From Streptomyces clavuligerus (GTDB taxonomy: Bacteria > Actinomycetota > Actinomycetes > Streptomycetales > Streptomycetaceae): a stretch of 64,000 nucleotides of DNA. Position numbers and translations under genes: made by a program. Positions 6,305 through 24,113 of this stretch are shown in pieces. Within the stretch, counting starts at the first letter, position 1, and every line of letters starts with the position of its first letter. The stretch covers positions 2,542,001 through 2,606,000 of the forward strand of contig NZ_CP027858.1 of assembly GCF_005519465.1 (NCBI RefSeq), given 5' to 3'. A model generated the notes under the pieces. That model did no database searches. It was not told where the DNA came from and worked only from the letters and a program-made list of their open reading frames with translations.

Positions 6305-7951
6305 TCAGAACAGGCTGGTGGCCGCGGTGCGGAGGATCAGCTCGGGGTAGCCGGAGAGGACCACCGCCGCCACGGCGGTGAGGGCGATCGCCAGGGTGAG
6401 GGCGGGTGCGGCGGTCCCCGTGGCGGGCCGTGCCGCGACCGCCGTCGGCGCGGAACCGGGCCCGGCGGTCGCCGGGGGCTCCGGCCGCCCGGACCGGTCC
6501 GTCCGCTGCTGCCCCGGGGCCCGTTCCGGCTCCGGAGCGCGGAAGAGCACCGCCGTCCACATCAGGTAGTAGTACAGCGCGATGACCACGTTGACCGCCA
6601 TGACGACGGCGAGCCAGCCCAGCTCGGCGTCGACGGCCGTGGAGAAGACCGTGACCTTCGCGAAGAGCCCGATGATCCCCGGCGGCAGACCGGCCAGGCA
6701 GAGCAGGAAGAAGGCCATCACCAGGGCGGTGAGCGGGCTGGTGGACGCGAGGCCCCGGTAGTCGGAGATCCGGTTCAGCGGCTTGGTGCGGGCGACCAGG
6801 GCCACCACGGCGAAGGCGCCCAGGTTCACGACCGCGTACATCAGGGCGTACGCGACCGTCGCGCCGATCTGGTCGTCGCTGGAGTACGCGGCGGCGGCCA
6901 CGGGCACCAGGATGTAGCCCGCCTGGCCCACGGAGGACCAGGCCAGCAGCCGGACCGCGCTCCGGGGCCGGTCGGGGTCCTGGCGCAGGGCGGCGGCGTT
7001 GCCCGCCGTCATGGTCAGCGCGGCGAGCAGGGCCACGACGGGGCCCCAGACATCCGCGTACCCGGGGAACGCGACCACGGTCACCAGGATCAGCCCGGAG
7101 AAACCGACCGCCTTGCCGACGACGGAGAGGAAGGCCGCGATCGGCAGCGGCGCGCCCACATAGGTGTCGGGGACCCAGAAGTGGAAGGGGACGGCGGCCG
7201 TCTTGAAGGCGAAGCCGATCAGGGTCAGCGCGACGCCCGTCTTGACAAGGGTGTCGAGCTGTCCGGGGACGCTGCCCAGCTCGGCGGCGATCCGGGTGAG
7301 ATGGAGACTGCCGGTGGCGGCGTACACGAAACTCACGCCGAGCAGGGTGACGGCGGTCGCGGTGACGGAGGAGAGGAAGAACTTCAGCGCCGCCTCGCTG
7401 GAGAGCCGGTCGCCCCGGCGCAGACCGACCAGCGCGAAGGCGGGCAACGAGGCGACCTCCAGGGCGACGACCAGGGTGGCCAGGTCCCGGGACGCGGGCA
7501 GCAGGGCCGCGCCGGCGGTGGCGGACAGCAGCAGGAACCAGTACTCCCCCACCGGGTACGCGCGGTGGACGCGGTGGAGCGAGAGCAGGGCCGTCAGCAG
7601 CGCACCGCCGAGCACCAGGAGCTGGATGGCGAGGGCGAAGCGGTCGGCGGCGTAACTACAGGTGTCCGCGTCGGTGGTGAGGCAGAAGGTGCGGCGTTCG
7701 CCGTCCCGCAGCGGTACGAGGGTCAGGAGCGCGGCGGTGAGGCCCGCGAGCGCGCCGACGCCCAGCCAGCGCTTGTGCCGTTCGGGTACGAAGAGGTCGG
7801 CGACCAGCAGGATCAGGGCGACGGCCGCGGTGATGGTCGGGGGCGCGATCGCGAGCCAGTCGACGGACTGGACCAGGCTTCCGTCGGCCGCGGTGGTGCG
7901 GACGGCGTCCACCGCGGTGCGGACGGCGGGATCGCCGCTGGTCGTGATCAC
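6305..7951 (-). CDS. nuoN: NADH-quinone oxidoreductase subunit N, second operon
   Basis: A proton-pumping antiporter-like membrane subunit of complex I, 548 residues and about 14 hydrophobic segments. The Proton_antipo_M core is present (SSVGQAGYILVPVA and KTAAVPFHFWVPDTYVGAP with the pumping lysine/histidine region). GTG 7951 is chosen because AGGAGG lies just upstream and it overlaps the nuoM stop (GTGA). A Pro/Ala-rich, low-complexity cytoplasmic insert near residues 475-520 is absent from the nuoN of the main operon. It is the last gene of the 10-gene operon. Confidence 0.95.
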   Translation of the reverse strand: MITTSGDPAVRTAVDAVRTTAADGSLVQSVDWLAIAPPTITAAVALILLVADLFVPERHKRWLGVGALAGLTAALLTLVPLRDGERRTFCLTTDADTCSYAADRFALAIQLLVLGGALLTALLSLHRVHRAYPVGEYWFLLLSATAGAALLPASRDLATLVVALEVASLPAFALVGLRRGDRLSSEAALKFFLSSVTATAVTLLGVSFVYAATGSLHLTRIAAELGSVPGQLDTLVKTGVALTLIGFAFKTAAVPFHFWVPDTYVGAPLPIAAFLSVVGKAVGFSGLILVTVVAFPGYADVWGPVVALLAALTMTAGNAAALRQDPDRPRSAVRLLAWSSVGQAGYILVPVAAAAYSSDDQIGATVAYALMYAVVNLGAFAVVALVARTKPLNRISDYRGLASTSPLTALVMAFFLLCLAGLPPGIIGLFAKVTVFSTAVDAELGWLAVVMAVNVVIALYYYLMWTAVLFRAPEPERAPGQQRTDRSGRPEPPATAGPGSAPTAVAARPATGTAAPALTLAIALTAVAAVVLSGYPELILRTAATSLF

Positions 7952-22813: not shown

Positions 22814-24113
22814 CCCCACCACCACACCCACCACCGGTGCCACAGCAGGCACCACGGCCGCCGCGACGGCAGGCACGGCGGCCACCGCCGGTGCCGGTGC
22901 GGGCACCACGGCGGAGGGTGCGACTCCGGCGGACGGTGCGGTTCCGGCGGCTGCCGGAACCGGCGCGGCTTCGGCCGGTGCCGGCGCGGGCAGCACCGGT
23001 ACGGCTTCGGCCGGTGTTCCGCGGGCGGGTGTTCCGCAGGCGGAGGGCAGACCGGTACTGAGCATCGCCGACGCCCTGTCCCTGGTCCCCCGCGCCACCG
23101 GCCGCCAGACCATGAAGGACTTCAAGTCCGACCAGGAAGTCCGCTGGTGCCCCGGCTGCGGCGACTACGCCGTCCTCGCCGCCGTCCAGAGCTTCATGCC
23201 CGAACTCGGCATCCCCCGCGAGAACACCGTCTTCATCTCCGGCATCGGCTGCTCCTCCCGCTTCCCGTACTACATGAACACCTACGGGATGCACTCCATC
23301 CACGGCCGCGCCCCCGCCATCGCCACCGGCCTGTCCACCTCCCGCCAGGACCTGTCCGTCTGGGTCGTCACCGGCGACGGCGACGCCCTGTCCATCGGCG
23401 GCAACCACCTCATCCACGCCCTGCGCCGCAACGTCAACCTCAAGATCCTCCTCTTCAACAACCGGATCTACGGACTGACCAAGGGCCAGTACTCCCCCAC
23501 CAGCGAGACCGGGAAAATCACCAAGTCCACCCCCATGGGCTCCCTCGACGCCCCCTTCAACCCCGTCTCCCTCGCCATCGGCGCCGAAGCCAGCTTCGTG
23601 GCCCGCACCATCGACTCCGACCGCAAACACCTCACCGACGTCCTGCGCGCCGCCGCCGCCCACCCCGGCACCGCCCTCGTCGAGATCTACCAGAACTGCA
23701 ACATCTTCAACGACGGCGCCTTCGACACCCTCAAAGACAAAGAACAGGCCCAAGAAGCCGTCATCCGCCTGGAACACGGACAGCCCATCCGCTTCGGCAC
23801 CGACAACACCAAAGGCGTCATCCGCGACCCCCACACCGGAGACCTCCAGGCCGTCACCGTCACACCCGACAACGAACACCACATCCTCACCCACAACACC
23901 CACACCCCCTCCCCCACCACCGCCTTCGCCCTCTCCCGCCTCGCCAACCCCGACACCCTCCACCACACACCCATCGGTGTCTTCCGCGACATCCAGCGCC
24001 CCGTCTACGACACCCTGCTCAACGAACAGCTCGACACCGCCGTCGAGCAGTCGGGCCAGGGCGATCTGTCGAAGCTGCTCGCCGGGAACGACACCTGGAC
24101 CGTGGTCGGCTGA
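22806..24113 (+). CDS. korB: 2-oxoacid:ferredoxin oxidoreductase, beta (thiamin diphosphate) subunit
   Basis: Catalytic beta subunit. Thiamin diphosphate/Mg motif GDGDALSIGGNHLIHALRR, then ILLFNN; cysteines in WCPGCGDY (Cys115, Cys118) and GIGCSSR are likely ligands of the single 4Fe-4S cluster. 435 residues, of which residues ~4-75 are an Ala/Thr/Gly-only low-complexity leader absent from typical KorB proteins. Most of the gene uses a G-avoiding codon style (CTC, GAA, GGA, CAC) that ends near 24020. ATG 22806 overlaps the korA stop. Confidence 0.94.
   Translation: MPDPTTTPTTGATAGTTAAATAGTAATAGAGAGTTAEGATPADGAVPAAAGTGAASAGAGAGSTGTASAGVPRAGVPQAEGRPVLSIADALSLVPRATGRQTMKDFKSDQEVRWCPGCGDYAVLAAVQSFMPELGIPRENTVFISGIGCSSRFPYYMNTYGMHSIHGRAPAIATGLSTSRQDLSVWVVTGDGDALSIGGNHLIHALRRNVNLKILLFNNRIYGLTKGQYSPTSETGKITKSTPMGSLDAPFNPVSLAIGAEASFVARTIDSDRKHLTDVLRAAAAHPGTALVEIYQNCNIFNDGAFDTLKDKEQAQEAVIRLEHGQPIRFGTDNTKGVIRDPHTGDLQAVTVTPDNEHHILTHNTHTPSPTTAFALSRLANPDTLHHTPIGVFRDIQRPVYDTLLNEQLDTAVEQSGQGDLSKLLAGNDTWTVVG

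Follow-up and report, generated by a model that had tools for sequence, protein, structure and literature searches.

The stretch of Streptomyces clavuligerus DNA analysed here (the window, 64,000 nucleotides, G000:C1:2542001-2606000, in a genome of 8.54 Mb and two contigs) contains, besides a main nuo operon for complex I, a second one, denoted nuo2. We consider it likely that nuo2 and an unlinked gene, nuoD2, together encode an eleven-subunit complex I free of the NADH module, in which Arg76 of NuoD2 is probably dimethylated by a neighbouring methyltransferase and the electron donor is most likely ferredoxin. Briefly, nuo2 would encode ten of the eleven subunits of this quinone reductase and proton pump, and the eleventh, NuoD2, would be supplied by a gene located downstream of a member of the PF02636 NDUFAF7/MidA family, whose product would act on Arg76 during assembly. 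NuoD2, and not the NuoD1 of the main operon, which has a Thr at that site, would provide the Arg at iron-sulfur cluster N2, opposite a Thr of NuoB2. A soluble low-potential donor, most likely ferredoxin reduced by several sources (the 2-oxoacid:acceptor oxidoreductase Kor being one candidate), would deliver electrons to NuoI2, and these would exit to a quinone.

The nuo2 operon

Family searches identified ten genes on the minus strand, running from position 16682 down to 6305 in the order nuoA2, B2, C2, H2, I2, J2, K2, L2, M2 and N2, with intergene spacings of -10 to +27 bases. The relevant features of both operons are as follows.

16209..16682, minus: nuoA2 (NCBIfam NuoA models)
15499..16218, minus: nuoB2, N2 cysteines kept, Thr at the site of Arg83 of Thermus thermophilus Nqo6
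14261..15502, minus: nuoC2, whose long C-terminal part is of low complexity (PF00329)
13299..14264, minus: nuoH2 (PF00146)
12658..13296, minus: nuoI2, two 4Fe-4S motifs (family match and motifs read)
12005..12661, minus: nuoJ2 (family match)
11616..12005, minus: nuoK2 (family match)
9610..11619, minus: nuoL2 (TIGR01974, above cut-off)
7948..9606, minus: nuoM2, start at 9606 or 9582 (TIGR01972, above cut-off)
6305..7951, minus: nuoN2 (TIGR01770, 318.6 bits, slightly below the cut-off of 332.6)
55268..57010, minus: nuoD1 open reading frame, Thr at the Arg76 site and Tyr at the Trp99 site
57473..58027, minus: nuoB1, Arg at the Nqo6 Arg83 site

The initial annotation had described a ten-gene nuoABCHIJKLMN operon without D, E, F and G, and the family matches bear this out: no nuoD, nuoE, nuoF or nuoG was found within the operon by NCBIfam and Pfam searches, and a nuoD would find no space between nuoC2 and nuoH2, whose ends overlap by 4 bases. 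It had also stated that NuoB and NuoI keep all their iron-sulfur cysteines, which agrees with the translations, since NuoB2 retains the CC...C...C cysteines of cluster N2 and NuoI2 both 4Fe-4S motifs, that is, the ligands expected in an eleven-subunit complex I. Lys/Glu motifs are likewise readable in NuoL2, NuoM2 and NuoN2. The operon thus encodes subunits A, B, C, H, I, J, K, L, M and N of such an enzyme but does not hold nuoD, and it has none of the nuoE, nuoF and nuoG that the operon of a 14-subunit NADH complex I would include. These three are missing from the nuo2 locus, yet they are present in the main operon of the same genome, for which the family search recovered B, C, D, E, F, G, H, I, J, L, M and N. 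Its last gene, nuoN1, spans 42193-43842, so the 26 kb said to separate the two sets hold (16682 to 42193). A passage of PMC9239103 describes the nuo2 of S. coelicolor as having neither NuoC nor NuoL; contrary to that statement, the S. clavuligerus operon has both NuoC2 and NuoL2.

An unlinked nuoD2 next to a methyltransferase gene

A genome-wide PF00346 search revealed a second NuoD at approximately G000:C1 3909385-3910590, outside the window and 1.35 Mb away. NuoD2 is 36% identical to NuoD1, from which it differs by the absence of a segment of about 41 residues, and scores above the NuoD equivalog cut-off of NF004739 (378.9 vs 360). Its match to the PRK12322 NuoD model (NF008974) covers one continuous stretch at 403.2 bits, below the cut-off of 522, and that to FpoD, also in one stretch, reaches 310.8 bits against a cut-off of 600, which does not indicate an F420H2 dehydrogenase subunit. 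NuoD1 matches the common-type NuoD models, also in one stretch. An unlinked nuoD2 would thus make a NuoD available to the nuo2 complex. Among 7,994 proteins matched by NuoD2, all organism names visible in the 120 matches listed are Streptomyces, the best at 93%. Located 112 bases upstream of nuoD2 is a gene whose product carries the methyltransferase domain of NDUFAF7/MidA (PF02636; cut-off 23.3 bits), and NuoD2 would present the kind of substrate on which that family acts, a D subunit with the Arg of the HRGxE motif. The nuo2 operon and the unlinked nuoD2 of Streptomyces are already in print (PMC3765725, PMC8388888), whereas in the portions of the open-licence literature covered by our searches no paper was found that ties nuoD2 to a methyltransferase.

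Co-occurrence of nuo2 and nuoD2

The distribution of both elements was surveyed in 148 genomes of the class, 127 of them of high quality. Matches were assigned to NuoD2 at E values of 5e-76 or better and to NuoD1 at 3.3e-72 or worse; diverged NuoD2 sequences and one fragment (G097) leave little margin there, but full NuoD2 matches run to the C terminus in one piece. NuoH2 stands clearly apart from NuoH1 (4.5e-77 or better and 61-100% identity, vs 1.6e-69 or worse and at most 45%). By NuoH2, nuo2 is present in 41 of the 148 genomes, and 80 named loci were collected besides, so nuo2 is a widespread actinobacterial system. As many as 39 of these 41 genomes contain nuoD2, the two misses being assemblies 72% (G014) and 80% (G108) complete. 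Within the high-quality set, 33 genomes have both, none has nuo2 alone, 22 have nuoD2 alone and 72 have neither; nuoD2 therefore accompanies nuo2 in 33/33, with the proviso that the Fisher values for this co-occurrence treat genomes as independent. Of 55 named nuo2 genomes, 54 likewise gave an additional PF00346 match within the NuoD2 range. None of the 80 named loci, which span 3.2-20.9 kb (16 are shorter than 15 kb), shows a nuoD1, nuoD2, nuoE, nuoF or nuoG.

Several observations on the arrangement of the operon can be added. Among the nuo2 genomes (G008, G143, G123, G131 and others), the nuo2 and main operons lie within 100 kb of each other in many and on separate contigs in others. In Kineosporia babensis (L102) nuo2 is split, with A2, B2, C2 and H2 beside korAB and I2, J2 and K2 on the opposite strand. 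Related open reading frames of 440-600 residues, forming one cluster, are interposed between nuoB2 and nuoC2 in L104, L110, L111, L126 and L130, and a similar one occurs in L065; they presumably resemble DUF2252 proteins.

Genome G128 (100% complete, 60 contigs) amounts to a natural experiment. It has a whole nuo2 operon (L056), a single NuoH, of the NuoH2 type, and a nuoD2 that lies 2 kb from a midA-like gene (L057). No NuoD1 match was obtained in this genome, NuoD2 being the only NuoD found; it also gave no PF01512 (NuoF) match and is absent from the KorB matches at E<=1e-40. Its nuo2 can therefore not borrow NuoD1, NuoF or this Kor. The closest named NuoH2 is that of Flexivirga endophytica (72%). 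G156, from the same genus, likewise has NuoD2 as its only NuoD, a midA-like gene nearby and no NuoF match; it is half a replicate of G128, as the 1.19 Mb read of its 3.1 Mb did not reveal a nuo2. No genome with nuo2 as its only set was reported in the open-licence literature searched, as far as the portions consulted go.

An Arg/Thr swap at cluster N2

In mitochondria, Arg85 of NDUFS2 (R121 in Yarrowia, within HRGxE) lies beside N2 and is dimethylated by NDUFAF7, and the Yarrowia R121M/K mutants lose N2 (PMC3829151, PMC3750175, PMC8042128). In T. thermophilus the D subunit has a Thr at this site, and the space is taken up by R83, an Arg that belongs to the B subunit. The two actinobacterial operons divide along the same line. 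Thr in NuoD1 is combined with Arg in NuoB1 at 23/23 loci from 22 genomes. In NuoD2 the residue at the NDUFS2 Arg85 site is Arg76 (motif HRGAEK), and this Arg is present in 53/53 sequences; NuoB2 has Thr at all 83 of the loci where the motif was matched, which represent 70 distinct stretches (L067 and L103, the same sequence stretch, are both counted). The T. thermophilus chains served to verify the residue register. Stops in the NuoD2 spans were written as X (five, in the rows L008, L021 and L059), these rows being kept in the counts, and L059 was excluded from alignment A3 owing to its stop. Since NuoB2 has Thr instead of Arg, the Arg at N2 must come from the D subunit. We infer that NuoD2 supplies it, given that a NuoB2/NuoD1 pairing would leave none; the NuoB2 residue, as read from the alignments, fits NuoD2 rather than NuoD1. 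The ranking of known structures agrees with these arrangements: NuoB1 best matches 8e9g_B (321 bits), followed by T. thermophilus, and NuoB2 best matches mitochondrial NDUFS7 (193.7 bits). The position of the quinone residue Tyr87 of T. thermophilus is occupied by Trp in 53/53 NuoD2 sequences and by Tyr at 23/23 NuoD1 loci. The open-licence literature searched, in the portions available, does not report an Arg/Thr swap between the two complexes.

These observations bear on the first proposal for this locus, in which nuo2 takes its NuoD from the main operon and receives electrons via ferredoxin from the KorAB next to it, with the nearby two-component system in control. In favour of borrowing, the nuo2 of Kineosporia mesophila is accompanied by NuoD1 as the sole NuoD match. 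However, nuoD2 is present, unlinked, in 33/33 high-quality nuo2 genomes, G128 has neither a NuoD1 nor a KorB match, and a NuoB2/NuoD1 pair would have no Arg at N2. Borrowing from the main operon is thus unsupported, and the proposal as a whole, whose Kor component is treated below, appears very unlikely.

A hybrid machine, in which subunits are exchanged between the two complexes (for instance, NuoL2 and NuoM2 incorporated into complex I, or main-operon NuoE, NuoF and NuoG docked on the nuo2 proteins), has been suggested in PMC3765725, PMC9239103 and PMC8388888. Both nuo sets occur in most of the nuo2 genomes sampled, and membrane subunits might be exchanged between them. Nevertheless, different families have retained an entire ten-gene operon with B, C, H and I of its own, no NuoF match that could dock was obtained in G128, and the Arg/Thr swap speaks against mixing at the B-D interface, so we regard a hybrid as unlikely.

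NuoD2 in genomes without nuo2

A number of observations weigh against the eleven-subunit enzyme with a methylated NuoD2. The first is that nuoD2 is found in 28 nuo2-less genomes, 22 of high quality (G070 is counted as nuo2-less, although its assembly is 91% complete and might merely have missed nuo2), and it is therefore not tied to nuo2 alone; the persistence of NuoD2 in these lineages is the main fact against its serving nuo2 only. Second, K. mesophila (L092) combines a Thr-type NuoB2 with no match in the NuoD2 range, which may reflect gene loss, an assembly gap or a real hybrid; such a match is present in K. babensis. To these must be added the failure to find nuo2 in the portion of G156 read. 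Furthermore, the genomes are not independent and the statistics of co-occurrence and identity are overstated for this reason. As for the modification, the methyltransferase encoded beside nuoD2 gave no PDB sequence match at E<=1 and no NCBIfam match, its putative assignment standing on one Pfam match of 59.7 bits, and Arg76 by itself is no proof of methylation because the Arg that E. coli NuoCD has at this site is reported to be unmethylated.

It could thus be argued that NuoD2 is not a subunit of the nuo2 complex but has a role of its own with the methyltransferase, its co-occurrence with nuo2 reflecting shared ancestry. Consistent with such a role, a midA gene lies on the same strand within 9 kb of nuoD2 at 14 of the 20 nuo2-less loci examined, and of the 168 columns of NuoD2 that are conserved among the 32 sequences from nuo2 genomes, 83 are also kept in the 21 nuo2-less sequences. 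These retain Arg76 and Trp99 in 21/21 and His50 in 20/21. However, NuoD2, unlike NuoD1, diverges more where nuo2 is absent: outside the genus, its mean identity to the copy of the window genome is 0.769 where nuo2 is present (15 genomes) and 0.571 where it is not (20 genomes), against 0.721 and 0.718 for NuoD1 (means that take genomes as independent), although the nuo2-less G030, G070 and G013 reach 0.70-0.76. Moreover, 22 of the 168 columns fall below half conservation in the nuo2-less set, among them E151, G153, T156, P157, F159 and F162, in a stretch that aligns with the quinone-pocket residues tabulated in PMC9503403 (Table 1), the register of these six being that of our own alignment. NuoD2 of nuo2-less genomes has thus lost part of the predicted pocket. 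Since, in addition, no other NuoD was found in G128, we give a separate role as the whole explanation of NuoD2 hardly any credence, and retain NuoD2 as the likely eleventh subunit. The nuo2-less loci L036-L055 (e.g. L046:9433-10530 and L052:9420-10532) show the combination of kept Arg76 and Trp99 with lost pocket residues.

Kor and the electron donor

Beyond nuo2, in the opposite orientation, lie genes for a sensor kinase pair, a response regulator and KorAB:

16683..16955, no strand: 273 intergenic bases separating nuoA2 from the divergent first kinase gene
16956..18245, plus: sensor kinase, AbrC1-like by position and domains (PF13796 Sensor, HisKA_3, HATPase_c)
18359..19729, plus: sensor kinase, AbrC2-like by position and domains (PF13796 Sensor, HisKA_3, HATPase_c)
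19922..20596, plus: LuxR-type response regulator, AbrC3-like by position
20801..22813, plus: korA, 2-oxoacid:acceptor oxidoreductase alpha (TIGR03710, above cut-off)
22806..24113, plus: korB, 2-oxoacid:acceptor oxidoreductase beta (TIGR02177, 247.7 bits, below the cut-off of 261.9)

A dedicated role of Kor as donor to nuo2 could be argued from the presence of KorB in 31/33 high-quality nuo2 genomes and from its proximity. Placement was determined in 37 of the 41 nuo2 genomes (G014, G021, G033 and G128 were left out, and G014, G033 and G128 have no KorB match): KorB lies within 15 kb of NuoH2 in 22, is not near in 14 and gave no match in one, with only G095 being certain as unlinked because the other 13 of the 14 lie on other contigs. 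Likewise, korA stands beside nuo2 at 45 of the 80 named loci, in L061, L067 and L074 directly and without the kinases; the gene order in L067 and L074 is nuo2-korAB-nuo1.

However, kor often lies near the main operon where nuo2 is absent. KorB occurs in 117/148 genomes (E<=1e-40), or 100/127 of high quality, and in 42 of the 57 nuo2-less genomes checked, out of 80 that are kor-positive, it lies within 35 kb of NuoD1, mostly at 15-20 kb. On the simplest reading, kor and the main operon are neighbours of long standing, and nuo2 sits next to them. G128 has nuo2 with no KorB match; Kor as dedicated donor is unsupported. Kor is probably a neighbour and not a dedicated partner of nuo2, for which it may be one ferredoxin source where present. 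Of the initial interpretation, a complex I without NADH module and with its ligands kept is supported; the borrowed NuoD and the dedicated Kor are not. The window genome has a second KorB outside the window (G000:C1:6116027-6117055), 95% identical to the window copy over 334 residues.

Genes within interrupted nuo2 operons were also considered as donors and set aside. The open reading frames of 30 gap stretches were clustered, the largest clusters having five members, and no recognisable shared donor emerged from these clusters, on which no family search was run; nor was one recognised by eye in the gaps and flanks of L056, L063, L065 and L071.

The two-component genes

The annotated order, with two sensor kinases divergent from nuo2 and korAB beyond them, was confirmed, with a response regulator between the kinases and korAB. 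The arrangement, two kinases and one LuxR-type regulator divergent from nuo2, is that of AbrC1/AbrC2/AbrC3, located beside SCO4599-4608 in S. coelicolor (PMC9739823, PMC4428217) and known there for antibiotic and developmental control, and by domains and position the kinase pair looks AbrC1/AbrC2-like. The text of PMC4428217, as searched, has 0 occurrences of nuo. In a gbn mutant both nuo2 and the AbrC system are reported to be raised (PMC9239103). Kinase matches beside nuo2 were found at 13/80 named loci, all of Streptomycetaceae, and in G007, from another family. The 3' halves of the kinase genes (16956-18245 and 18359-19729) are 95.1% identical over 679 bases, in contrast to the sensor halves, a pattern suggestive of gene conversion or of a recent duplication.

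Relation to known systems and significance

Eleven-subunit complex I enzymes are a known kind (PMC11238625). The nuoABCDHIJKLMN operon of Desulfitobacterium hafniense, described in the same source, shares with nuo2 the presence of A, B, C and H-N and the absence of E, F and G, and ferredoxin is a donor proposed there. However, D. hafniense is a strict anaerobe with nuoD in the operon, while here nuoD2 is unlinked and beside a PF02636 gene, and the 14-subunit enzyme is also present. The Streptomyces nuo2 (SCO4599-4608) and nuoD2 already described are of the same locus type, and their missing N-module has been noted (PMC3765725, PMC8388888, PMC9239103); nuo2 expression in S. coelicolor, also in print, counts in favour of the enzyme proposed here. 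With the mitochondrial NDUFS2/NDUFAF7 pair (PMC3829151, PMC3750175, PMC8042128) the system shares HRGxE in D, Thr in B and a gene of the PF02636 family, although the relation to NDUFAF7 is at the Pfam level, the gene here adjoins nuoD2 and methylation is a prediction. Compared with T. thermophilus Nqo4/Nqo6, the NuoD1-Thr/NuoB1-Arg pair matches and the nuo2 pair is the opposite arrangement.

Beyond what was in print, the present work contributes the co-occurrence across the class, the G128 genome, the swap of Arg and Thr, the methyltransferase gene next to nuoD2 and the test of kor linkage. More tentatively, actinobacteria might have two complex I types insulated by a reciprocal Arg swap: a Thermus-type NADH enzyme, with the Arg on NuoB, and a mitochondrial-type NADH-free enzyme, with a probably methylated Arg of NuoD2 provided in trans. 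The Trp of NuoD2 would then reflect a different quinone chemistry, and the NuoD2-methyltransferase pair of nuo2-less genomes would have another role.

The puzzle posed by nuo2 in PMC9239103, where its function is called unclear, would thus give way to a specific eleven-subunit model. It names the missing subunit, states at residue level how NuoB and NuoD are matched, includes a candidate modifying enzyme and offers, in G128, a natural test genome in which this was the only complex found. Moreover, one bacterial cell with an Arg-bearing D subunit and an Arg-less paralogue would allow a direct test of what the arginine modification of NuoD does.

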